Shown here: positions 32 to 12,408 of the stretch, one piece after another
Numbering within the stretch: position 1 is the first letter of the stretch
Layout of the letters: each line of letters begins with the position of its first letter
Source: Gemmatimonadaceae bacterium
GTDB taxonomy: Bacteria > Gemmatimonadota > Gemmatimonadetes > Gemmatimonadales > Gemmatimonadaceae
DNA: 13,305 nt
Direction of reading: 5' to 3'
Assembly (NCBI GenBank): GCA_013813605.1
Contig: JACCRL010000435.1
Coordinates: 1 to 13,305, forward strand
Notes under the pieces: model-generated
What the model was told of the DNA's origin: nothing
Seen by the model: only the letters and a program-made list of their open reading frames with translations
The model's database searches: none
Position numbers and translations under genes: made by a program

Positions 32-178
32 ATGAGAAGCCTGTGCTCCGGACTGCTTTTGCTGCTGTCGTGCCTTCCACTCGGAGCGGCAGCGCAGGCG
101 ACCGTCGCGGATTCGGTCCGTGCCGACTCCCTCGCACGAAGAGCTGACGCACTGACGTCCCGACGTTTGCAGCTGTAA
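32..178 (+). CDS. Very short exported peptide ORF (48 aa) or remnant of a secreted-protein gene
   Basis: I do not recognise a family. The ORF runs from ATG at 32 to TAA at 176-178. Residues 1-21 look like a signal peptide: Arg2, a Leu-rich core at 8-17 and an AAA cleavage site, so the mature part would start at Gln22 and be only about 27 residues long. A lipoprotein reading with cleavage before Cys14 (LLSC) is possible but is a weak lipobox. The mature part is Asp/Ser/Arg/Ala-rich and amphipathic, like the linker that often follows signal peptides in large periplasmic proteins, so this could be the start of a broken larger gene. There is no Shine-Dalgarno sequence, but a TATTTT hexamer at 21-26 lies 5 nt upstream of the ATG, compatible with a leaderless transcript. 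It converges on mlaD. Expression is unproven. Confidence 0.4.
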   Translation: MRSLCSGLLLLLSCLPLGAAAQATVADSVRADSLARRADALTSRRLQL

Positions 179-1127: not shown

Positions 1128-1885
1128 GCCTGGAGGTAGGGGGCGAGCAGGAGAGCGGTAACGGCATCCAGCACCAGGATCGCCACCGAAGTGATGACCA
1201 CCGCTTGCGCGGTGCTGCGTCCGACGCCTTCAGCGCCGACGTTTGCGGTGTAGCCTTCATAGGAGCAGAAGAACGCGATCGCAGCCCCGAATATAGTCGC
1301 CTTGATGACGCTGTACACGATCTGGAACGGCGCAAACTCCAGCCTCAGCCCTTCGGCAAAGGCTGCGGCGGTGACGTCCGTCGCGGTAACGGCGGTGAAC
1401 ATCGCCGAGCCGACACCGATCGCATCCGCGAGAATGACCAGCACCGGCAGCATCACGAGACACGCGATTACGCGCGGGACGACGAGATACGCCACCGGGT
1501 CGTAAGCCAGCGTCTCCAGGGCGTCGATCTGCTCCGTGACGCGCATGGTGCCGATCTCGGCGGTGATGCGCGCGCCGACGCGGCCGGTGAGAACGAGCCC
1601 GGTAAGAAGCGGCCCCAGCTCGAGAACGATCGACTGCCGCGAGATCAGGCCGACGACGGAAAGCTGGACGCCGCCAAAAAGCTGGTATCGCGTCTGAAAC
1701 GCGGTCACTGCACCGATGAATGCTGCTACGATGGCGGTAAGCGGCAGCGAGTCCACGCCTATATTGCGCATCTGGCGGAAAACTTCGGGGCCGTAGGTGC
1801 GCGGATCGCGAAAAGCGCGCACGATGTCGCGCAGGAAGTATCCGCGCTGGCCGACCTGCCTGAATGGATCGAGGACGAATTGCAT
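1124..1885 (-). CDS. mlaE: MlaE-family ABC transporter permease (phospholipid transport)
   Basis: Inner-membrane permease of the Mla-type lipid transporter, working with an MCE protein and an MlaF-type ATPase. From the ATG at 1885 the product is 253 residues, a normal length for the family. It has an amphipathic N-terminus (1-40), hydrophobic segments near 48-66, 85-103, 136-165, 187-208 and 228-250, and the strongly conserved block RVGARITAEIGTMRVTEQID (102-121) followed by AL and VVPR (135-138). In this family that block forms the ATPase-coupling region. A longer reading from 1948 exists, but I chose 1885 because its ATG overlaps the lptG stop by one base (TGATG) and gives the usual family N-terminus. 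No Shine-Dalgarno sequence is visible, so reinitiation after lptG is likely. No mlaF lies in the window. Confidence 0.92.
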   Translation of the reverse strand: MQFVLDPFRQVGQRGYFLRDIVRAFRDPRTYGPEVFRQMRNIGVDSLPLTAIVAAFIGAVTAFQTRYQLFGGVQLSVVGLISRQSIVLELGPLLTGLVLTGRVGARITAEIGTMRVTEQIDALETLAYDPVAYLVVPRVIACLVMLPVLVILADAIGVGSAMFTAVTATDVTAAAFAEGLRLEFAPFQIVYSVIKATIFGAAIAFFCSYEGYTANVGAEGVGRSTAQAVVITSVAILVLDAVTALLLAPYLQA

Positions 1886-2970
1886 CAGCTGCGGACGCGC
1901 GAGAACATGACCAGCCCCAACGTCCCGAAGATGATGCTCGGTAGCCACGCGGCGAAATCGGCGGGGATCATGCCCTTGCCGCCAATCGCCTTGGTGAGCT
2001 GGATCAGCATCAGGAAAACCACCGTCGTCGCAAGGCTCAGCCCGACTCCGTAAGCGGCGCCGCCGCGCTGGTTGCTGGTCGCGAGCGAAGCGCCGAACAG
2101 GAAGATGACCATGCTCGTCACGGGAATGGCCAGCTTGAGCATGCGCTCTACCCTGAGCTCGTTCACTTCAGCGCCGGAGCGTTCCATCGACGTGATGAAC
2201 CGGCCCAGCTCCCGAAACCCCATGTCCGTCGGTGCCTTCTGGGAGAGCGTGAGCTGCTTCGGTGCTTCGACGAAATGCCGGTCGGTGAGCGAATCGAACT
2301 CGTACGTCGTGTTGCGCATTGTGTCGGGAATCACGTGCATCGCGCCCTTGTGCAGCATCCAGCCACGACCGGGGGTGTTGCGCGCGTCAACGGCCGAAAG
2401 AACGTATGACGGATAGTCGGCGTCCTTTCCCTTGCGCTCGATCACAATGCCGTCGATCCCTCCTTCATTCACGTGCAGTCCGCCGATCTTGTAAACACGC
2501 CCCCCATCGGCCGCGTACGCGAAGTTGTAGCGGTCGGTTGCAACGCTCCTGCCTCGCGCACCCTGCAGGATGTCCATCCGCTTCTTGTTCGTAATCGGCG
2601 CAAGCTCCGCGAGCGCGAGGCCAAGCAGTGTCGCAACGACCGCACCGACGAAGATCGGCGCGATGAACCGGAAGAAGCTGATGCCGGACGCCTTTGCCGC
2701 CGCAATCTCCGAATGCCTGGTGAATCCACCGATCGCAAAGACAGTGGCGAACAGCACCGCCGCGGGAAGGACCATGAACATCGAATCCGGCAGCCAGTAC
2801 ACGTAGCTCAGCGCGATCCGCCCTATCGACAGCTTCTGGTTGATGTACTTGTCGAGGTTGTCGGTGACATCGATGACGTTGACAAGCACCGGAAATCCGA
2901 GCGCCGTCGCCATGAAGATCTTCCAGAACTCGGAGAAAACGTACCGGTCCAGCGCCCGGATGCGGCTCAA
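1885..2970 (-). CDS. lptG: LPS export ABC transporter permease LptG
   Basis: One of the two half-permeases of the LptB2FG complex, which extracts lipopolysaccharide from the inner membrane and feeds it to the LptC/A bridge. The product is 361 residues, matching typical LptG. N-terminal motif RALDRYVFSEF (5-15) is followed by membrane segments near 18-35, 54-80 and 100-122. The ASGIS coupling-helix region (94-98) follows EIAAAK. A periplasmic beta-jellyroll domain spans about 125-270, and three C-terminal membrane segments lie near 277-297, 305-327 and 338-356. TTG at 2970 is chosen as start because it overlaps the lptF stop in a TTGA junction and gives the expected N-terminus. No Shine-Dalgarno sequence is visible. 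The LptF and LptG assignments rest on gene order and length; each is a YjgP/YjgQ-family permease, so they could be swapped. Confidence 0.9.
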   Translation of the reverse strand: MSRIRALDRYVFSEFWKIFMATALGFPVLVNVIDVTDNLDKYINQKLSIGRIALSYVYWLPDSMFMVLPAAVLFATVFAIGGFTRHSEIAAAKASGISFFRFIAPIFVGAVVATLLGLALAELAPITNKKRMDILQGARGRSVATDRYNFAYAADGGRVYKIGGLHVNEGGIDGIVIERKGKDADYPSYVLSAVDARNTPGRGWMLHKGAMHVIPDTMRNTTYEFDSLTDRHFVEAPKQLTLSQKAPTDMGFRELGRFITSMERSGAEVNELRVERMLKLAIPVTSMVIFLFGASLATSNQRGGAAYGVGLSLATTVVFLMLIQLTKAIGGKGMIPADFAAWLPSIIFGTLGLVMFSRVRS

Positions 2971-4529
2971 GCCGTCGCTCGCCGGGGGGATGCGAGTCCG
3001 ATGCGCACGAACGCGGCGCGGAAACGGCCCCGAATGGAGTCCAGCAGCTCACGCATGTCGCCGCCGCGGGCGGTGGCCCCCTCTTTCCCCATCCCGGCAA
3101 GCAGCCAGAGCGCCACGCCGGCAAACAGGATGTTCGCCATCCACATCGAGATCACCGGCGGCATCCGGCCGCGCTTGGCGAGCGTCTCGCCGCCAATGAG
3201 CGCGATGTAATAGATCGAGAACAGGAGCAGGCTGACGCCGATGGTGAGACCGACACCACCGCGCGGAAAGCGCAGTGCGATCGGCGCACCGAGCAGCACG
3301 AACACGAAGCATGCAACCGCGAGCGCAAACTTCTTGTGAATCTCCACGGAGTAGGCGTTCATCAGCAGGGCGCTGTCGCCGAGTCGAATTCGGAGCGCGT
3401 CCATTGCCGCGGTGGCGAGCGGGTCGGCCGAGACAACCGCGGGCGGGATTCCCTGCGATGGGGCCTGCGCGGTGTTCGGGCGAGTCTTGCCGAGGGCTCT
3501 GAGCCGGGACGGCGTGCTGCTCGCGGTTGTGGACGACTGAGCGCCGGCCTTCTTTACCGGCAGCGACCCCAGCAGCCCGCAGTAGGCGGCTGCTAACCCG
3601 ACATCGAAGGGCGGCTCCGCTTTCTCTGCGATCACTTCCTTGCTCAGCGGCAACCTGTCTTGCCGCGCCTTCGTGCGCCTGGCGAGAAACTCGGCGCGGG
3701 AAAGCTGGTAATCCCTCCGCGCCTTGTCCTGTGCCTGTCGCATCTCGCAGAGCGTCATCTCGCGATCGCTCTTGTAAGAGTCGTTGCCCGTCTTCTGGAA
3801 CTGGTTGCCGACCCCGCGCACCCTGATGAGGTCGACGTTGAAGTACAGGCGCTGGAGCTCATCAGGCGTGGCGGTGGGAACATCCTGCATGTTTCCGCTG
3901 TAGAGCGTTAACTCGAGGTCGGTCATGCGGCTGTTCATGCGCATGTTCCCGCTGTCGGCGTAAATGGTGCGCCGTCGTGTTGGGTCGCCCATGTCGTAGA
4001 TGGTCACTTCGCGCATCAGATTCGATCCTTCGTCCAGATGGCCGGCGCGAAGGTAGAGCTTGCCCGGACTCACCTCGTTAATGACCTGCTCGCGGAGACC
4101 GAATGTCGGTTTCTTCTGGGCGATGTCGCGCTGGAGGATGCTCAGGCGATGGTTGGAGCGCGGCAGGATCTGGTCGTTGAACCCGACCATCAGCATGGTG
4201 ACGCCCAGCGCCGCGAGGAGCACGGGCCGCAGCACGCTGACGAGACTCACTCCGCTCGCCTTGAGGGCTGTGATCTCGTTCTCCGAGGCCAGCCTGCTGA
4301 ACGCATAAAGCGTGGAGACGAGCACCGCCATCGGCAGCGTGAGGGCGATGGTGAGGGGAACCGAGAGCGCGAAGAACTCGATGATTACGCGCGCCGGCAG
4401 CCCCTTACCGACGAGCTGCCCGAAGTGCTTGCCGATGTACTGCAGCAAGAGGAGCGAGGTGAGGGCGGTGAGTGCGAAAATGAGAGGCCCGAGGTGCTCC
4501 TTAAGAACGTAGCGGTGCAGTATCTTCAC
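2967..4529 (-). CDS. lptF: LPS export ABC transporter permease LptF, with long insertion
   Basis: YjgP/YjgQ-family permease and partner of LptG in LPS extraction. From GTG at 4529 the protein is 520 residues, against about 365 in E. coli LptF. It has the family N-terminus ILHRYVLKEHL (3-13), membrane segments near 15-33, 50-76 and 100-118, the ENEITALKASGVS coupling region (83-95), and a periplasmic jellyroll (about 125-245). The last three segments lie near 402-420, 428-447 and 458-478. Between the jellyroll and segment four is an extra region of roughly 140 residues (about 250-395): a charged, probably helical part with Cys261 and Cys317, then a Ser/Thr/Ala/Pro-rich stretch (327-370). A longer ORF reads back to 4670, but it crosses the divergent sprA start and adds a low-homology Arg-rich leader. 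It is the first gene of the lptFG-mlaED operon and probably carries its promoter. Confidence 0.92.
   Translation of the reverse strand: MKILHRYVLKEHLGPLIFALTALTSLLLLQYIGKHFGQLVGKGLPARVIIEFFALSVPLTIALTLPMAVLVSTLYAFSRLASENEITALKASGVSLVSVLRPVLLAALGVTMLMVGFNDQILPRSNHRLSILQRDIAQKKPTFGLREQVINEVSPGKLYLRAGHLDEGSNLMREVTIYDMGDPTRRRTIYADSGNMRMNSRMTDLELTLYSGNMQDVPTATPDELQRLYFNVDLIRVRGVGNQFQKTGNDSYKSDREMTLCEMRQAQDKARRDYQLSRAEFLARRTKARQDRLPLSKEVIAEKAEPPFDVGLAAAYCGLLGSLPVKKAGAQSSTTASSTPSRLRALGKTRPNTAQAPSQGIPPAVVSADPLATAAMDALRIRLGDSALLMNAYSVEIHKKFALAVACFVFVLLGAPIALRFPRGGVGLTIGVSLLLFSIYYIALIGGETLAKRGRMPPVISMWMANILFAGVALWLLAGMGKEGATARGGDMRELLDSIRGRFRAAFVRIGLASPRRATA
4521..4526 (+). promoter_or_regulatory. Candidate -10 element for sprA (leaderless-type)
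   Basis: The plus strand reads TATCTT (TANNNT) and ends 6 nt before GTG 4533, with no Shine-Dalgarno sequence between them. This mirrors the arrangement on the other strand and supports 4533 as the sprA start. No clear -35 is seen at the expected distance; TTAAGA at 4501-4506 is too close at 14 bp. The element lies within the first three codons of lptF. Confidence 0.35.
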
Positions 4530-4537
4530 AGAGTGAA
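4525..4537. repeat. Palindrome containing both divergent start codons
   Basis: TTCAC (4525-4529), a 3-bp spacer AGA and GTGAA (4533-4537) form a perfect 5-bp dyad. It arises in part because both genes begin GTG-AAR (Met-Lys) on opposite strands. It may be a protein-binding site or only a by-product of the symmetric starts. Confidence 0.5.
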
Positions 4538-7500
4538 ATATACCGTGCGCTCGAGGGTAAGCGACACGACGACAACGACTTCCGTCTTCGCAACGCGCCT
4601 TGCCGCACGCGTCGGCGGCGTTGCCGCGGCGCTCGTGGCGGTCCTTTGCGTCGCGGCGTCGCCCGTGCACGCGCAGGAACCGCGCGATACCGCGCGCACC
4701 GTCACGCCAGCGCTGCCGACCACGCCTCCCACCGGAATGCCGGGCACGCCCGGGCTCCGCCTCCGACTCGGGCGCGATACGCTTCCGCTCACGCTGCCAC
4801 CGGTGATCTCACGCGGCGACCGGGAGTCGTTCCGCCAGGCGTCGGCGCAGATCGAAGCGGCGCGCGCGACTGCGTTCCAGCAGAACATGCGCACCATCCT
4901 CGAATCGGTGTGGGGACAGGTGGCGACGACGAGCTTCGCCACGTCCATCCAGGCCCCCTCTTACCCGGGCGAGATTCCGCTCAAGCCGAAGCCCGTCGCA
5001 GACATCAAGCCTGTGCCGATCATCGGCGAGTACGCGGACCTCGGCCTTCAGCTCGACGGGCGCCTCGAGTTCCGCGGCGAAAAGAATCAGAGCGCACTCT
5101 GCTCGTCGGCGATCTTTTTCGACCCGGCTGTCAACTGCCGCAGCGCCTTCGAGCCGCTCGTCGAATTCCAGTTCGCAGCGCGATCCGGCGGCGTCGTCGC
5201 CGACCGCGTCCACGTGAACCTCGACTACGACACGCAGCGCGAGTTCGACGCGTCCAACAACATCTCCATTTACTACCAGGGCAGGGGGAACGAGAAGCTT
5301 CAGCGCCTCGAAGTGGGAAACGTCACCTTCCAGCCCCCCGCTTCGCGTTTCATCACCGCCGGCATCCCGAGCGGCAACTATGGCGTGCAGGCAATCACGA
5401 AGCTCGGCCCAATGCGCCTCAAGGCGATTCTCGCGCAGCAGAAGGGCAACATCGTGCGCGACCACGTCTTTACCATCGGCGATCGCACGCTGCAGGCGGT
5501 CGACCGCAAGATCGAGGATTATCAGTTCGAGCCGCGCCGTTTCTTTTTCACCGTGAATCCGATGTTGTTCGGCGGCTCGTACCCGAACATCGACATTCTC
5601 GACACACGCCGGATGGCGTCACTCTCCGCTTCGCTGCCCGACACGCTGCGACCGACGAAGATCTTTCTTTACCGCCTGCTCATCGGTGGCCAGCCGCCAA
5701 ATCCAAGCGGACCTCAGTTCCGCATCCTCGGCAATCCGAGGTCACGGCGCGGGCAAGTCTACGAGTATCTCCGCGAAGGGGTGGACTACTATGCGGATCC
5801 ATCGCTCCTGTGGATCGCGCTCGTGCGGCCCCTTGCTCTCAATAATGAGCGGCTCGTCGTCGCGTACCGCGTCCGCATTAACGGCCGCGACACTGTGTTC
5901 GCCAGCACCGGTGGAACCCCCGACCTCTCCTTCAACCCGTCGACGGAGCAGCTCGCCAATCTGATCTGGGATCCCGATGTGCAGCCGGGCGATCCCGCGT
6001 TCGACCGCGAGATCCGCAGCGTCTACCGGCTCGGTGGCGCCGACCTCCGGCGCCAGAGCGTGACGTTGAAGGTCGTTGCGGGCAGCAGCGCCGACCAGGA
6101 GAAGCCGCCCGCCGGCAATGCAGACACCTACCTCAAGCTGTTCGGGCTCGCGCAGAGCACCAACAGCTCCAGCTTCGACATCGAGAACCGGATCTGGCCG
6201 CGACCGAGTGACCCGAACTTCGAGCTGAGCCTTGGTTCCACCGGGGCGAAGACGATTCGCGATCAGTTCCTGATCTTTCCTTCGCTCAAGCCGTTCGCCG
6301 CGGCCGGGCTGGCGGGAAGGGGGAACCCGGCGAACGACACGATCTACACGACGCCGCCCGAGTACGTCCGCTCCGCGCAGCGCCCGGAAGCGGTGTATCA
6401 CATTCGCCTCCGCTATCAGGCCGAGGGGAGCGGCGAGGGCGGCGCGCTGATGCTCGGCTCGGTACAGCTGCGGCCCAACTCCGAGCGCCTGTTCATCGAC
6501 GGCATCCCGCTCAATCGCGGCACCGACTACTCGGTCGATTACGACCTCGGCAGAGTCTCGTTCAACCGCCCGGATACGCTTTTTCCACGGCCCCGACAGG
6601 TCACAGTGCAGTACGAAGAGAACCCGGTGTTCGAGGAAACTCCAACATCGATCTTCGGCGCGACGGCGGAGTTTCAGACGGCGAAGGGGCAGGTGAACCT
6701 GACCGCCATCTCGCAGAAGCAGCGCACCAACTTTACGCGCCCGCCGCTCGGGTTCGAGCCCGCCGCCTCAATCGTTGCCGGAGTAAGCGGCCTGTTCAGC
6801 TTCGACGCGCAGCCGATCACCCGTCTCGTATCGCTGCTGCCGCACGGACCGACTGATGCGCCGTCGCGCATCGGGCTCACGGCCGAGCTCGCGGCCAGTA
6901 AGCCGCAGACGAACGCGGCCCAGCAGGCTTACCTGGAATCCTTCGAAGGCGAAGGGGGGCTGCAGATCTCTCTCAACGATCCGCAATGGTACTACAGCAG
7001 CCAGCCCGCGCTGGGCAGCAGAATTCCGTCTCGCTTCGGAGCGGGGGTATTCGATCTCGCGCGTGCATCGACGATGGCGTGGCAGAGCAACGGTGTCGAC
7101 GTGAACGGGAATCCGGTGCGCTATCGCATCGACCAGATCGACAGCCTCGCGACGCTCGCCGGCACCGGCGTCGCCGGCCCCGAGCAGTTGCTCTGGCTCA
7201 CGCTCTACCCGCTTGGCGTCGGCGGGCTGCTCAACAACTCCACCGACGTCTTCCGATGGAGTATCGCTGGTGCTCCGGCGGGACGCCGCTGGAGATCGAT
7301 TCGCACCGCGCTCGGACCCAGCGGGTCTGACATCTCGCGCGCCGAGCACCTCGAGTTCTGGGCGCAGATACCGATCAGGGAAGGACGCCGGCTGCGCAAC
7401 CCGACGATCGTTTTCGATTTCGGCGATGTCTCGGAGAATTCCGTCGCGTTTTCGCCAGACTCATTGTTTCTGCGTCCCGCCGCGCTGGCGGGGACGTTCG

Positions 7501-10500
7501 ACAGCACGTACCGCGGCAAGAGAATCCAGGGATATGACCGGCTGGACACGGAGCGCGATCCCTTTTCACGCGCCTTCAATGCCGGCGTAAACGACAACGG
7601 CCTGCCGGGCGACGTGGCCGATTCCCTCACGGCCATCGTCGAGACGGGCGGGCCGCCCGTGGTGTCGGTCCTCAATTCCTTCCGCACCTGCAAGGGCGGC
7701 TACGGCGCCCGCCAGGTTCTTGGCGACGCGAAAATCAACTGCACGATCAACAACAACCGTCTCGACGAAGAGGATGTCGACTCCGACAACGTCCTCAACC
7801 TCACCAGCTCCGAGCGCGACGCGGAGCAGTGGCACCGCTACATCGTCAATCTCGCCGACGACTCTCGCTACACCCGCGTCGGGAGGTGCTCCGTCGGCCC
7901 GCTCCTCGCCGGACAGAACAAGAGCTCGGAAACGGTCTGCTGGGTCCTGTTCAGGATTCCCTTCCGCGCGCCCGACGACTCGCTCGGCAATCCGCTGCTG
8001 CGCCGCGCCAAGGCGCTTCGCATCACGATGGTTTCCGGCGATAACGCCGCTGACGAAGAGTTCACTGCGGTTCCGCTGGCGCGCCTCCGCCTTACCGGGG
8101 CGCCGTGGCTCAAGGTGAGCGACCGCACTCTCCGCGGAATCGCCGGCGCGCAGACGTCGCTTGGCTCGGTGAACTCGGGTGTGATCGGCACGCAGGACAA
8201 AAATCTCACCAGTGGTGTCAGCTACGAATCCCCTCCTGGCGTGACCGATGCGCCATCGAGCAAGACCGTGTCGTACCAGCCAGGCCGGGTGCAGATCAAT
8301 GAGCGCTCACTGCGCCTGACCGCCACCCAGCTGCAGCCGTTCGAGCGGGCAGAATCGTACTACCGGTTCCCCGAGGGCGAAAAGAATTTCATGAGCTACA
8401 CTGAGCTCCGGCTGTGGGCGCGCGGCGTACGCAACGGCTGGGGACCGGACGGAGAGCTCCAGTTTTACGTTAAGATCGGGCGCGACGAAAACAACTTCTA
8501 TCTCTACCGCACGCCGCTCAACTCGGGTGACAGCAAGGCGGCCTGGCTGCCGGAGGTCCGCGTCGACTTCCGCAAGCTGTTCACGCTCCGTGCGCAGATC
8601 CAGAATGCGTATCTTCAGGGCAAGAGCCGGAACACCTGCACCGGCCTCGACTCGGCGCTGATTGCAAACACTCCCGTTCCCGCCGGTGCGAGCAGCGAGG
8701 GCCGGTACGCCGCCTGCGCAGACGGCTACATCGTGTACACTCTCGAGCCGGGCGTGAGCGCGCCGAATCTCGCCGCTGTGCAGGAGCTGTCGGTGGGAAT
8801 GCTGCGCCTTCCATCCGGCGCATCGGCGCGTGCGGTGATGCCCGGAGATACGCTCGAAGTCTGGGTGGACGACATCCGCCTTGCCGGCGCCGTGGGCGAG
8901 GCGGGATTCGCGGGCCAGCTCGGCCTGACGGTCATTGCCAGCGACTTCGCCGACATTCGCATCAACGCCAGCCGCCGCGACCCGAACTTCAGGCAGCTCG
9001 CCGAGCAGCCGACTTTCCTCACCGACAACAGCGTTTACGTCAGCTCGGCGTTCCGTCTCGAGAAGCTGCTGCCCGCGTCTCTCGGGCTGTCGATGCCGTT
9101 AACAGTGAACTACACGTCGGCCGGCACCGACCCGTACTACGTCTCCCAGTCGGACATCTTCGGAGAGGCGGTCGAAGGACTGCGGACGCCACGTTCGGCG
9201 GCGGCCTCGGTCACATTCAGCGTCCGCCGCATCAGGCGCTCCACTGGCACGAAACTCGGGCCGCTGATCGACAACCTTTCGCTCAACAGCGCCTACACCA
9301 CCGGTAACTCGCGGAGTGAATACGAGAACGGCAGGGCGCGAAACTTCGTCGTCGGCCTGGATCTGAACGTCTTGCGCGCGCTCGCGCCGAGCCTGTCGCG
9401 CTGGACTCCGTCGGAGCTGCACCTCACCAGCGTGTACAACCACGGCAATGACCGGCGCACCTCGTTCCTCAAGCCCGCCGCTTCCGCGGACGATCGGTCA
9501 CGCGCCGTGCGGGGAAGGAACCGGACGTGGCGTAACGGAAGCAGTATGGTATTCCGACCATGGAAGGCGGCGGCTCTGCGGTGGGACCTGACGTCGGTGC
9601 GCGATCTGCGCGGCTACGGCTCCAGCTCTCCGCTCGGCGTCGTCGCGGCGAGCGACCGCGATCACCTGCTCGGAGCCAGCACCGGTCTCGAGCGCGAGCG
9701 CGCGATGCAGGCGGGAATCAACATCTCTCCGCCAATCACGGCCTGGTTTCGCCCGCGCCTCGACTTCGGGACATCCTACAACATGCTGCGCGATCCGAAC
9801 ACGCTTAGCTTCACGCGCGAGCGGGATGACAGCGCCGCCAACTTCCGCATTCCGCGGCGGCTCGGAAACTCGCAGACGCTGACAGCGGGCCTGTTGCTCG
9901 ATCTGCCGCGCGCCGTGAAGCAGTACACGGATTCCGGAAGCTTTCTGCAACGATTTCTGGGCGGGCTGCAGCCGGTGGACGTGAATTTCAACCGTAGCCT
10001 GCTTTCCGTGTACGACGGCAGCTCGACCGCCGCGCCGCTCGGCTATCAGTTCGCGTTCGGCGGCATCAACACCTTTCGCGCGCTGAGCGGCGAGCTTGCC
10101 ACGAGCGCCGGACTGATCACTCAGATGTCCGTGAACCAGTCGCTCAACCTGCCTTTCGGCGCGAGCGTCGCGAGCCGCTACCAGCGAATCAACACCCGCA
10201 ACTGGACGCGCCGCTTCGACGAGGGCCAGGAAGTGGTGGACGGGACGCAGGTGGTGTTTCCCGACGTGTCCCTCCGGTGGAGCGGCCGGCCGCGCATGCT
10301 CAGCGCTCTCATATCCAGTCTTGGCGCAAACGCACGCATGCTCGAGACGCGCCAGTTCAACGGTACGCAGCCATTGTTCGGCGGGCTCTTCGACGACCGC
10401 GGACGCATGCATGTCAGGACCTATCCGGTGAGCGCGTCGGTCGTCTTCGCCGGCGCCCGTCCGCTGTCGAGCAGCGCCGGCTTCTCGCTTTCGAAGCGTC

Positions 10501-10868
10501 TCGATGCGCGACCCGGTCTCGCCAGCGATGGAAATAACTCGGACTACAACATCGACGTCGCCAAGCCGTGGGCATTGCCACCCGAGTGGAACCTCAGGAG
10601 CGACCTGCGTACGAGAGTCAGCTACCAGAAAAGCCAGGGACAGACCTTCGTCGTGAATCCGCTCGCCCTGACGGGAAGGAGCCGTCTCTCCGACAACGGC
10701 CGCCGCGCATTAAGCATGAGCGCAGACACCGACGTCGCCGAAAATCTTTCATCCAGCTTTGTTCTGTCGCGCGTGGAGAGCTTCGACCGTAACCTTAACC
10801 GGCGCTTCACGCAGACAGTTCTGAGCGCCGTAATGCACCTCCAATTCTACGCCGGGGAGTTCAAGTGA
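4533..10868 (+). CDS. sprA: SprA/Sov-type outer-membrane translocon of the type IX secretion system
   Basis: Homologue of SprA, the very large beta-barrel through which type IX substrates cross the outer membrane. The product is about 2,111 residues (Flavobacterium SprA is about 2,400). Residues 1-47 form a signal peptide cut at VHA/Gln48. Recognisable SprA blocks, in order: LDYDTQREFD and VGNVTFQPP (about 229-270); two copies of a GxDYxxD motif followed by a VAY/VQY strand (about 414-450 and 655-700); SFEGEGGLQISL (about 803); EEDVDSDNVLN (about 1078); SYTELRLWARG to YVKIGRDENNFYLY (about 1287-1330); and EVWVDDIRLAG (about 1441). The last 650 residues are alternating strands ending FYAGEFK. 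GTG 4545 is an alternative start; readings further upstream run through lptF. Eight mature cysteines form four close pairs. It overlaps the next gene by 4 nt. Confidence 0.92.
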   Translation: MKYTVRSRVSDTTTTTSVFATRLAARVGGVAAALVAVLCVAASPVHAQEPRDTARTVTPALPTTPPTGMPGTPGLRLRLGRDTLPLTLPPVISRGDRESFRQASAQIEAARATAFQQNMRTILESVWGQVATTSFATSIQAPSYPGEIPLKPKPVADIKPVPIIGEYADLGLQLDGRLEFRGEKNQSALCSSAIFFDPAVNCRSAFEPLVEFQFAARSGGVVADRVHVNLDYDTQREFDASNNISIYYQGRGNEKLQRLEVGNVTFQPPASRFITAGIPSGNYGVQAITKLGPMRLKAILAQQKGNIVRDHVFTIGDRTLQAVDRKIEDYQFEPRRFFFTVNPMLFGGSYPNIDILDTRRMASLSASLPDTLRPTKIFLYRLLIGGQPPNPSGPQFRILGNPRSRRGQVYEYLREGVDYYADPSLLWIALVRPLALNNERLVVAYRVRINGRDTVFASTGGTPDLSFNPSTEQLANLIWDPDVQPGDPAFDREIRSVYRLGGADLRRQSVTLKVVAGSSADQEKPPAGNADTYLKLFGLAQSTNSSSFDIENRIWPRPSDPNFELSLGSTGAKTIRDQFLIFPSLKPFAAAGLAGRGNPANDTIYTTPPEYVRSAQRPEAVYHIRLRYQAEGSGEGGALMLGSVQLRPNSERLFIDGIPLNRGTDYSVDYDLGRVSFNRPDTLFPRPRQVTVQYEENPVFEETPTSIFGATAEFQTAKGQVNLTAISQKQRTNFTRPPLGFEPAASIVAGVSGLFSFDAQPITRLVSLLPHGPTDAPSRIGLTAELAASKPQTNAAQQAYLESFEGEGGLQISLNDPQWYYSSQPALGSRIPSRFGAGVFDLARASTMAWQSNGVDVNGNPVRYRIDQIDSLATLAGTGVAGPEQLLWLTLYPLGVGGLLNNSTDVFRWSIAGAPAGRRWRSIRTALGPSGSDISRAEHLEFWAQIPIREGRRLRNPTIVFDFGDVSENSVAFSPDSLFLRPAALAGTFDSTYRGKRIQGYDRLDTERDPFSRAFNAGVNDNGLPGDVADSLTAIVETGGPPVVSVLNSFRTCKGGYGARQVLGDAKINCTINNNRLDEEDVDSDNVLNLTSSERDAEQWHRYIVNLADDSRYTRVGRCSVGPLLAGQNKSSETVCWVLFRIPFRAPDDSLGNPLLRRAKALRITMVSGDNAADEEFTAVPLARLRLTGAPWLKVSDRTLRGIAGAQTSLGSVNSGVIGTQDKNLTSGVSYESPPGVTDAPSSKTVSYQPGRVQINERSLRLTATQLQPFERAESYYRFPEGEKNFMSYTELRLWARGVRNGWGPDGELQFYVKIGRDENNFYLYRTPLNSGDSKAAWLPEVRVDFRKLFTLRAQIQNAYLQGKSRNTCTGLDSALIANTPVPAGASSEGRYAACADGYIVYTLEPGVSAPNLAAVQELSVGMLRLPSGASARAVMPGDTLEVWVDDIRLAGAVGEAGFAGQLGLTVIASDFADIRINASRRDPNFRQLAEQPTFLTDNSVYVSSAFRLEKLLPASLGLSMPLTVNYTSAGTDPYYVSQSDIFGEAVEGLRTPRSAAASVTFSVRRIRRSTGTKLGPLIDNLSLNSAYTTGNSRSEYENGRARNFVVGLDLNVLRALAPSLSRWTPSELHLTSVYNHGNDRRTSFLKPAASADDRSRAVRGRNRTWRNGSSMVFRPWKAAALRWDLTSVRDLRGYGSSSPLGVVAASDRDHLLGASTGLERERAMQAGINISPPITAWFRPRLDFGTSYNMLRDPNTLSFTRERDDSAANFRIPRRLGNSQTLTAGLLLDLPRAVKQYTDSGSFLQRFLGGLQPVDVNFNRSLLSVYDGSSTAAPLGYQFAFGGINTFRALSGELATSAGLITQMSVNQSLNLPFGASVASRYQRINTRNWTRRFDEGQEVVDGTQVVFPDVSLRWSGRPRMLSALISSLGANARMLETRQFNGTQPLFGGLFDDRGRMHVRTYPVSASVVFAGARPLSSSAGFSLSKRLDARPGLASDGNNSDYNIDVAKPWALPPEWNLRSDLRTRVSYQKSQGQTFVVNPLALTGRSRLSDNGRRALSMSADTDVAENLSSSFVLSRVESFDRNLNRRFTQTVLSAVMHLQFYAGEFK
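4537..4542 (-). promoter_or_regulatory. Candidate -10 element for the lptF operon (leaderless-type)
   Basis: On the minus strand this reads TATATT, a good match to TANNNT, and ends 7 nt before the GTG start of lptF. Transcription would then begin at or next to the start codon, giving a leaderless mRNA. This fits the absence of a Shine-Dalgarno sequence. No convincing -35 is visible at 17-18 bp spacing. The element lies inside the first codons of divergent sprA. Confidence 0.4.
10854..10859 (+). promoter_or_regulatory. Ribosome binding site inside the sprA 3' end
   Basis: GGGGAG within the last codons of sprA lies 5 nt before GTG 10865. It fixes the start of the M28/cyclase gene at the GTGA overlap and supports coupled translation with sprA. 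Confidence 0.6.
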
Positions 10869-11806
10869 AGACTGTGCGATCGCTGCTTTTAATGTGCACG
10901 GCTGCAGCGTGCAACGGTGACGCGAAGGGCGGCGATGCCCCGGTGCGGGATGCGCCCGTCCGGCGCTACACTGCTTTCAACGGCAGCGCCGCGTACGCGT
11001 ACGCAAAAACGCAGGTGGACTTCGGTCCGCGCGTTCCCGGCACGCCGGCCGCTCGCAAGGCCGGCGACTGGATCATCGCCCAGATGCGGGCGCGCGCGGA
11101 CACGGTGATAGTGCAGAGCTGGACGCACACCACGGCAACCGGCATAAAGCTGCCTATGCGCAACGTCCTCGCTCGGTTCCGTCCGGAGATGACGGATCGC
11201 GTGCTGTACGTCACGCACTGGGATTCGCGTCCGGTGTCGGAATCGGCGTCGGATTCCGCGCAGCGAAAGCTCCCCGTTCCCGGCGCGAACGACGGCGCAT
11301 CGGGCGTAGGGCTCTTCGTGGCGCTCGGAGATGTGCTCAAGACTACCAGGCCCACCGTTGGCGTCGACCTGCTGTTCGTCGACGGCGAGGACTACGGACA
11401 GTTCGGGCCGCCGGAGGTGGATGTGCTGATCGGCTCGAAGTATTTCGCGCAGCACATGCCCTCTGCCGATTACCGCCCCCTCTACGGCGTGGTGTGGGAC
11501 ATGATCGGTGACGCGGACCTGCGCCTCCCCTATGAGATGAATTCCTTTGAACAGGCGCCTGAAGTCGTTGCCAAGGTGTGGCAGATGGCCGCCGAGATGG
11601 GCCACGGCAACATCTTCGTGCAGGAAAGTGGTGGCGCCACGACTGACGATCACATCCCGCTTCTGAAGGCCGGCCTGCGCGTGATAGATGTCATCGACCT
11701 CAGTTATCCGGCTCACCACACGCCTGAGGACACGATGGACAAGATCTCCGCGCGATCGCTCGGAATCGTCGGCGACGTCGCGACCGCCCTGGTGACTCGA
11801 AAGTAG
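10865..11806 (+). CDS. M28-family zinc enzyme resembling glutaminyl-peptide cyclotransferase, probable lipoprotein
   Basis: Probably converts N-terminal Gln of exported proteins to pyroglutamate in the periplasm; an aminopeptidase role is the alternative. The protein has 313 residues. The N-terminus (Lys2, Arg5, Leu-rich 7-10, AAAC at 13-16) suggests a lipoprotein anchored at Cys16, although Ala at -3 is not ideal. M28/cyclase motifs appear in order: THWDSRP (117-123), GANDGASG (140-147, Asp143 as zinc ligand), FVDGEDYG (171-178, Glu175 as general acid/base, Asp176 as likely zinc ligand), WDMIGD (211-216), DDHIPLL (261-267) and AHHTPED (283-289, His285 as likely zinc ligand). DDHIPLL closely resembles the DDHIPFL of animal glutaminyl cyclases and favours cyclase over peptidase. 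Variations are Asp instead of the second Glu in the EE pair, and His284 where animal enzymes have Trp. Start is GTG overlapping the sprA stop, with GGGGAG 5 nt upstream. Confidence 0.82.
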   Translation: MKTVRSLLLMCTAAACNGDAKGGDAPVRDAPVRRYTAFNGSAAYAYAKTQVDFGPRVPGTPAARKAGDWIIAQMRARADTVIVQSWTHTTATGIKLPMRNVLARFRPEMTDRVLYVTHWDSRPVSESASDSAQRKLPVPGANDGASGVGLFVALGDVLKTTRPTVGVDLLFVDGEDYGQFGPPEVDVLIGSKYFAQHMPSADYRPLYGVVWDMIGDADLRLPYEMNSFEQAPEVVAKVWQMAAEMGHGNIFVQESGGATTDDHIPLLKAGLRVIDVIDLSYPAHHTPEDTMDKISARSLGIVGDVATALVTRK

Positions 11807-11859: not shown

Positions 11860-12404
11860 ATGACGCAAGTCCCGGCTGCGCCACAACCTTACGCTACGAT
11901 GCCCACGTCATCGGAGCGTAAGGCGCTTATCTTTTTCGCCGCCGTCACCCTGCTTGGCGGTAGCGTCCGCGTCTACCGGGCCGCCAACCGGAACGCGGCA
12001 CCCGACCCTGCCGCCCGCGCCGCGCTCGCCCTCCAGCTCAAGGCTGCCGATTCCGCACGAAAAACAAAGGGAACCCGTCCCTCAAAACGTGAAAGAAAGC
12101 AAAAAAAAGCCGTTCAGGCTGCTGGGCCCGTTGACCTCGATCTGGCGAGCGCGGAGCAGATCGAAGCGCTTCCCTACATCGGACCCTCACTGGCAAAGAG
12201 GATTGTCGATGACCGGGACTCACTTGGCCCCTTCGGCTCGCTGGAGGCCCTGGAGAGAGTAAAAGGGATCGGCCCCGCCATGGTCGTAAGGCTCGGGCCC
12301 AGCGTAACCTTCTCCCTTTTCCCGCGTCCTTCCAACACAGTTACATCAAGGCGCTCCGAGCTGCCCAGGGCACGCAGGAAGCCTCACCGGAGGGACCAGC
12401 TTCC

Positions 12405-12408
<4 letters not shown>
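11860..12408 (+). CDS. Membrane-anchored ComEA-like helix-hairpin-helix protein
   Basis: Probable DNA-binding protein of the competence/DNA-uptake type, placed next to a pilus ATPase gene. The 182-residue product has one hydrophobic segment (about 21-36). An Ala-rich, then very basic linker follows (about 42-84; Lys/Arg cluster 67-83), then a tandem helix-hairpin-helix domain (about 92-150). The domain carries the usual ComEA landmarks: LDLASAEQIEALPYIGPSLA (93-112), GPFGSLEALERV and KGIGP (135-139). The Arg-rich tail (163-182) is not typical of ComEA; it overlaps the translation signal of the next gene and may exist mainly for that reason. ATG 11860 has GGAG at 11845-11848, 11 nt upstream; ATG 11899 is an alternative. 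The linker DNA is A-rich and contains eight consecutive A at 12101-12108. A generic HhH protein without a competence role cannot be excluded. Confidence 0.78.
12389..12394 (+). promoter_or_regulatory. Ribosome binding site deciding the TTG start of the PilB-like gene
   Basis: GGAGGG lies 10 nt before TTG 12405, inside the 3' end of the HhH gene. No ATG, GTG or TTG occurs in this frame for at least 100 nt upstream, so this site and the TTGA overlap together fix the start. Confidence 0.7.

Follow-up and report, generated by a model that had tools for sequence, protein, structure and literature searches.

Organization of the sprA locus

The window analysed here, a stretch of 13,305 bases, is one entire contig (C380) of a Gemmatimonadaceae bacterium whose draft assembly comprises 2.13 Mb in 454 contigs and is 80% complete. 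Its plus strand carries the genes of the outer-membrane translocon SprA, a protein of the M28 fold, a ComEA-like helix-hairpin-helix protein and a PilB-type ATPase, and its minus strand those of MlaD, MlaE, LptG and LptF (Table 1). Our subject is the pair formed by sprA and the M28-fold gene, which very probably encodes a type II glutaminyl cyclase (QC), together with the frequency of glutamine (Gln) directly after the signal-peptidase I site (position +1) of exported proteins in this bacterial class.

SprA scores 684.6 bits against TIGR04189, for which the cut-off is 200. Read from the GTG at 4533, it has a predicted signal peptide of residues 1-47, ending CVAASPVHA/QEPRD, which places Gln48 at +1. 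The stop codon of sprA (TGA, 10866-10868) and the start codon of the QC gene (GTG, 10865-10867) share the four bases GTGA, and a Shine-Dalgarno-like GGGGAG lies five bases ahead of that start, wholly within sprA, an arrangement that suggests translational coupling of the two genes. For the overlap, the ribosome site and the VHA/Gln48 site alike, the sequence confirms what a first-pass annotation of the window had described. The same annotation regarded a short open reading frame (ORF) as the other signal-peptidase I substrate of the window; this ORF does read PLGAAA/QATV, with Gln22 at +1, but its status as a substrate is unsure because it has only 48 residues and also a lipobox-like LLSC ending at Cys14, so that it may encode a lipoprotein or a substrate of signal peptidase I, or may not be a gene.

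Table 1. Features of the sprA locus (positions in the window)
Feature	Positions	Strand	Basis and remarks
sprA, outer-membrane translocon SprA/Sov, 2111 aa	4533..10868	+	TIGR04189, PF14349; GTG start 4533
Type II glutaminyl cyclase (very probable), bacteroidal kind, M28 fold, 313 aa	10865..11806	+	PDB matches, alignments, signature, tree, model, fold, lipobox
GTGA, shared by the QC start and sprA stop codons	10865..10868	+	sequence; putative translational coupling
GGGGAG, Shine-Dalgarno-like, within sprA	10854..10859	+	sequence; 5 nt ahead of QC start
Helix-hairpin-helix (ComEA-like) protein	11860..12408	+	PF12836; TIGR01259 44.9 bits, below cut-off 152; follows QC in conserved cluster
PilB/GspE-type ATPase, cut by contig end	12405..13304	+	profile matches; last gene in conserved cluster
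LptF	2967..4529	-	PF03739 (search run on 2967-4526); divergent from sprA
LptG	1885..2970	-	PF03739; TIGR04408 171 bits, below cut-off 240
Short ORF, 48 aa, AAA/Gln22, gene status uncertain	32..178	+	sequence

Identity of the M28-fold protein

The protein encoded behind sprA is very probably a type II QC and not an aminopeptidase, an assignment based on its tree, active-site signature, lipobox and fold. As the first-pass annotation had supposed, it is glutaminyl-cyclase-like: in the tree it clusters with the QCs of Bacteroidota, apart from the aminopeptidase-like paralogues tested. Its sequence matches in PDB are 6qql, 7cje and 6qro, and its predicted structure (predicted local distance difference test, pLDDT, 92.3) has an M28 alpha/beta fold nearest to that of Bacteroidota QCs. 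The window protein resembles the Bacteroidota enzymes more than it does two other type II QCs, from Fimbriiglobus ruber (7d1b) and an Acidobacteriales bacterium (7d18).

The reference for the active site was PgQC (PG_2157), the QC of Porphyromonas gingivalis, which is likewise a lipoprotein of the M28 fold. Five residues are identical between the two enzymes, namely the zinc ligands (Asp149, Asp183, an Asp in place of human QC Glu202, and His299 in PgQC) and the counterparts of human Glu201 and Asp248; in the window protein the five are Asp143, Asp176, His285, Glu175 and Asp212, and they are invariant in 37 of 37 aligned rows. Asp-Gly, with Gly after the first zinc ligand, occurs in 27 of 28 class QCs, the window protein included, in nine of nine Bacteroidota QCs and in none of 15 M28 paralogues. 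The window protein thus has Asp-Gly together with Glu-Asp, whereas all 15 paralogues checked show the aminopeptidase pattern; the two-zinc aminopeptidase motifs Asp-[Asn/Asp] and Glu-Glu were sought in the window protein and are absent from it, and it does not group with paralogues that have them. A lipobox, TAAA/C16, indicates that the QC is not itself a signal-peptidase I substrate. Lipoprotein signals were found in 24 of the best 30 class QC loci (of 67 matches), the window included, and of the remaining six, five are plausible lipoproteins by eye and one is truncated at the end of its contig.

Glutamine at the +1 position

Signal peptides were analysed in stretches of 16 genomes and in regions around sprA and QC genes, using a purpose-written gene caller and signal-peptide finder. 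Two estimates were made, one from a finder of hydrophobic regions fitted by expectation-maximization (EM), the other a plain motif count with shuffles; homologues of the window's own genes were removed before both (in Bacteroidota, for example, 139 candidates became 133). Neither estimate presupposes Gln, and the EM model began with background letters at +1.

In the EM model the frequency of Gln at +1 was 0.49 in genomes with a type II QC (13x background), 0.71 in genomes without (21x) and 0.35 in Bacteroidota (10x). Decoded sites had Gln at +1 in 60/114, 43/56 and 50/133 candidates, respectively, and in 0/11 from Escherichia coli, a small control; the class total is 103 of 170, in a model whose null fraction stood at its floor of 0.02, so that poor candidates were assigned sites too. 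In the plain count, the motif [ALVSTGI]xA-Q stood close to the end of the hydrophobic segment in 53/114 candidates from genomes with a type II QC, 31/56 from genomes without, 42/133 from Bacteroidota and 0/11 from E. coli, for shuffled expectations of 12.2, 6.4 and 6.2 in the first three groups. Gln followed internal sites of the same proteins in 99/2283, 39/1286, 61/1685 and 6/137 cases. Over the class, 131 of 170 candidates have any such site and 84 have it with Gln; in the genome of the window it is 6 of 13. An earlier rule-based cleavage predictor (37/95 with Gln at +1) was dropped as it misplaced sites, preferring, for example, AQA over LGA/Q.

A preference for Gln over other residues at +1, which the first-pass annotation had put forward, is thus strongly borne out in the sampled genomes: the Q-rule described in Bacteroidetes, by which many signal-peptidase I substrates begin with Gln once cleaved, exists in this lineage. 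The enrichment is independent of SprA and of QC type. By SprA, the motif was found in 61/128 candidates from genomes with the translocon and in 23/42 from genomes without it; weighting by protein family lowered the share of Gln among proteins with a site from 0.61 to 0.55 and from 0.74 to 0.68, respectively. By cyclase, the counts are 35/80 for type II only, 18/34 for both types, 24/39 for type I only and 7/17 for neither. Gln at +1 had been expected to go with the presence of a type II QC, but no such link was found, genomes without the type II enzyme scoring at least as high; 30 of the 53 genomes without it carry the unrelated type I enzyme.

Two unrelated cyclases

The class was sampled in 119 genomes, in which type II QC was counted at E <=1e-12 and SprA above its curated cut-off. 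Type II QC is found in 66 of them, the weakest cases being G010 (36% identity) and G027 (a fragment), and type I QC (PF05096) in 42, with weak partial matches in G078 and G036. The two are largely exclusive: 54 genomes have type II only, 30 type I only, 12 both and 23 neither (Fisher p 1.7e-5, uncorrected for relatedness). At least one type is thus present in 96 of 119 genomes; in each of the four named above (G010, G027, G078 and G036), one of the two types is represented by a weak or partial match. The genome of the window, 80% complete, has the type II enzyme and no type I match. A comparable near-exclusion is given for Bacteroidetes, with 574 of animal type, 507 of plant type and 63 with both (PMC5837995).

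The 23 genomes with neither enzyme include incomplete assemblies. A search in them for diverged type II QCs gave 27 matches at E <=1e-8 in 16 of the 23; one is a probable remnant, and the ten checked of the other 26 all bear the aminopeptidase signature. The remnant (L307, 1498-1686, on contig C54 of G064) is an isolated C-terminal fragment of a QC with 51% identity over 56 residues, lying mid-contig; no match to the rest of a QC was found in that contig.

In one genus of the family (G039, G090 and G116; loci L079, L080 and L113) the QC is of type I and not of type II. Against the Bacteroidetes-based model its SprA reaches 876-1251 bits, far above the 463-650 bits of the best matches in the other genera of the family, where one split gene scores 258; SprA may have been replaced by transfer in this genus.

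Conservation of the sprA-QC pair

SprA is found in 77 of the 119 class genomes, a weak match in G043 being excluded. It occurs together with type II QC in 51, alone in 26 and is lacking beside QC in 15, and 27 genomes have neither; the co-occurrence has a Fisher p of 0.0019, without correction for relatedness. Of the 51 genomes with both, 37 have the QC gene on the same strand and no more than 4 kb downstream of the last SprA match. They are spread over families f1, f2, f3, f5, f6, f9 and f10, so that the adjacency is widespread and not, as would have counted against the first-pass annotation, unique to one genome. Ten of the 14 exceptions belong to family f7, in two of which (G050 and G056) the genes are far apart within one contig; in G015, G027 and G081 they are on different contigs, and in G040 they are apart within one contig.

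The overlap was surveyed in the best 30 of 67 class QC matches. A SprA end lies upstream of the QC in 21 of these loci; in 15 of the 21 a start codon of the QC frame stands at the same -4 position (ATGA or GTGA), and in two more the sprA stop directly abuts the QC start. The gene arrangement is both conserved and new. In Bacteroidota no SprA was found beside QC at any of 80 loci (1.36 Mb, including flanks of at most 10 kb), from which the arrangement appears particular to the present group; many of these loci come from gut Bacteroides and kin, for which the absence is unsurprising, Bacteroides species being a noted exception among the bearers of type IX secretion systems (PMC11285876). Another class of the phylum has type II QC in five of six genomes, and in four of these five the SprA matches are listed on contigs other than that of the QC, a weak indication in draft assemblies; in G130, also of that class, the position of SprA is not among the listed matches.

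The locus is modular. Without SprA, the QC gene still adjoins LptF in G060, G118 and G084, with PilB near in G060 and G084; without QC, SprA still stands ahead of ComEA and PilB in G037, G109, G101 and G090; and in G040 a QC-ComEA-PilB block is separate from LptF-SprA. These gene maps are crude, having been drawn by a longest-ORF rule that missed or shadowed some genes; the adjacency counts above are independent of them.

In the window the divergent start codons of lptF and sprA are 3 nt apart (4527-4535), so that the ribosome site and promoter of each must sit within the other gene. A relative of the same genus (L085) has the same spacing; elsewhere among the relatives the first start codon usable for sprA, a choice that is unsure, mostly lies about 45-130 nt from lptF.

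SprA and components of type IX secretion

Type IX secretion systems were found only in Bacteroidetes by one source (PMC4793230), and another holds that they may occur in this phylum (PMC11285876). The class shares with the system of Bacteroidetes a SprA homologue and homologues of the PorV family, the latter above cut-off in 65 of 119 genomes; the genome of the window, at its 80% completeness, has one weak PorV match (1.6e-4). It differs in the motor and in the cargo signals. GldM was found in none of the 119 genomes by a search that was positive in six of six Bacteroidota genomes, a result with which a motor too diverged for the GldM profile would be compatible; GldL was likewise found in none, in a search without positive control. 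The type A C-terminal domain (CTD; TIGR04183) is above cut-off in only 27 of 119 genomes and in none of the contigs of the window's own, incomplete genome; type B CTDs were not searched. With GldM undetected and GldL silent, the system is not filed here as a type IX secretion system.

Interpretation

The reading that we favour, to which we give a probability of about three in four, is that the QC is a general periplasmic enzyme that caps exported proteins, that the whole class follows the Q-rule, and that the overlap with sprA reflects an old gene order. A protein would be exported by Sec and cleaved by signal peptidase I, with Gln as its new N-terminus; the lipoprotein QC, facing the periplasm, would then convert this Gln to pyroglutamate in vivo, and the blocked N-terminus would resist aminopeptidases. 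Pyroglutamate capping has been argued to give such protection in P. gingivalis (PMC10653852). Capping would serve exported proteins in general, SprA among them, most lineages relying on either the type II QC or the unrelated beta-propeller type I QC. The overlap would belong to an old order of envelope-biogenesis genes, LptG-LptF / SprA-QC-ComEA-PilB, with conserved translational coupling, which may set the dosage of QC or simply be inherited, the enzyme not being confined to SprA or its cargo.

The first-pass annotation had gone further, proposing that the export-plus-capping system of Bacteroidetes exists here, with the cyclase made in step with the channel so as to cap the channel or its cargo on emergence. 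The Q-rule and the QC are indeed present, but the link to the channel finds no support. A coupling that serves mainly to cap SprA, or what travels by SprA, would agree with the order kept in 37 of 51 genomes, the -4 start codon at 15 of 21 loci, the uncorrected co-occurrence (p 0.0019) and the lack of SprA at all 80 Bacteroidota QC loci. Yet QC occurs without SprA in 15 genomes and SprA without type II QC in 26, the Gln pattern is equally strong without SprA (23/42 against 61/128) and is as marked where only type I QC is found (24/39), and the two genes are distant in G050 and G056 and lie on other contigs in the four draft genomes of the other class. Published data from P. gingivalis moreover place capping at the inner membrane, where it does not control type IX secretion, and a reaction completed before outer-membrane transport, together with the Gln pattern and the QC of SprA-less genomes, makes capping dedicated to SprA improbable. 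A little less improbable, although still doubtful, is a SprA/PorV route that works without the GldLM motor on another energy source and in which sprA is translationally coupled to the gene of the N-terminal capping enzyme; the giant barrel would then need capping to assemble or stay stable, fresh QC being made beside each SprA chain.

Several observations weigh against a general capping enzyme. Trp193 and Trp298, which line the pocket of PgQC (PMC7948796), are replaced in the window protein by Val187 and His284 (codons 11423-11425 and 11714-11716), and 11 of 28 class QCs have Trp at position 298; these tryptophans are no proof of activity, and the enzyme is classed as QC-like by its clade, with a putative cyclase activity. 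Together with the Pfam label Peptidase_M28 and NCBIfam peptidase matches that are weak and far below cut-off, their loss would suit an ordinary two-zinc aminopeptidase that stands behind sprA by chance, a reading made very improbable by Asp-Gly and Glu-Asp, unlike all 15 paralogues, by the tree, and by nearest folds and sequences that are bacteroidal QCs. Genomes in which neither QC was found (for example G031 and G025) nevertheless show frequent Gln at +1; a larger count for them, 14/29, keeps homologues of the window genes, with two SprA proteins and some doubtful ones among its candidates. A third enzyme, genes missed in incomplete assemblies, spontaneous cyclization or a taste of signal peptidase could explain Gln without a known QC. 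If that taste, or inherited signal peptides, accounted for Gln at +1 throughout, the QC having few substrates or acting slowly and Gln mostly cyclizing by itself or staying free, persistence of the pattern irrespective of QC type would follow, and spontaneous cyclization is known (PMC5837995). We consider this unlikely, to about the same degree as capping chiefly of SprA: at least one QC occurs in 96 of 119 genomes, the two unrelated types are largely exclusive, as if the activity were needed, and the 23 genomes with neither include incomplete assemblies.

Relation to known systems and significance

The general capping that we favour has its closest parallel in Bacteroidetes, with the same Gln at +1, the same kind of lipoprotein cyclase and the same tendency for a species to have either type II or type I QC but seldom both. 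It differs in phylum and in gene context, since the window QC overlaps sprA and PgQC is the first gene of another operon, one of three genes (PMC10653852). Published accounts treat the Q-rule as specific to Bacteroidetes, most Chlorobi being low, with scattered high values elsewhere, such as 77% in Ignavibacterium album (PMC5837995). The stem 'gemmatimonad' is absent from the main text of the Q-rule papers of 2018 and 2023 (PMC5837995, PMC10653852), and among open-licence PubMed Central papers no report was found of a glutaminyl cyclase or a Gln cleavage rule in Gemmatimonadota, nor of one joining SprA, glutaminyl cyclase and type IX secretion. What is described here is thus an enzyme and a rule of known kinds, in a phylum for which no report of them was found and in a gene arrangement that is new.

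A preference for Gln that runs through the sampled class, accompanied by one or the other of two unrelated cyclases, suggests that the trait is older, or was gained more than once, in the wider group. SprA and PorV, common here without detectable GldM, raise the question of what powers export, and genomes that lack SprA, have only the type I enzyme or have no known QC are natural experiments on the purpose of capping.

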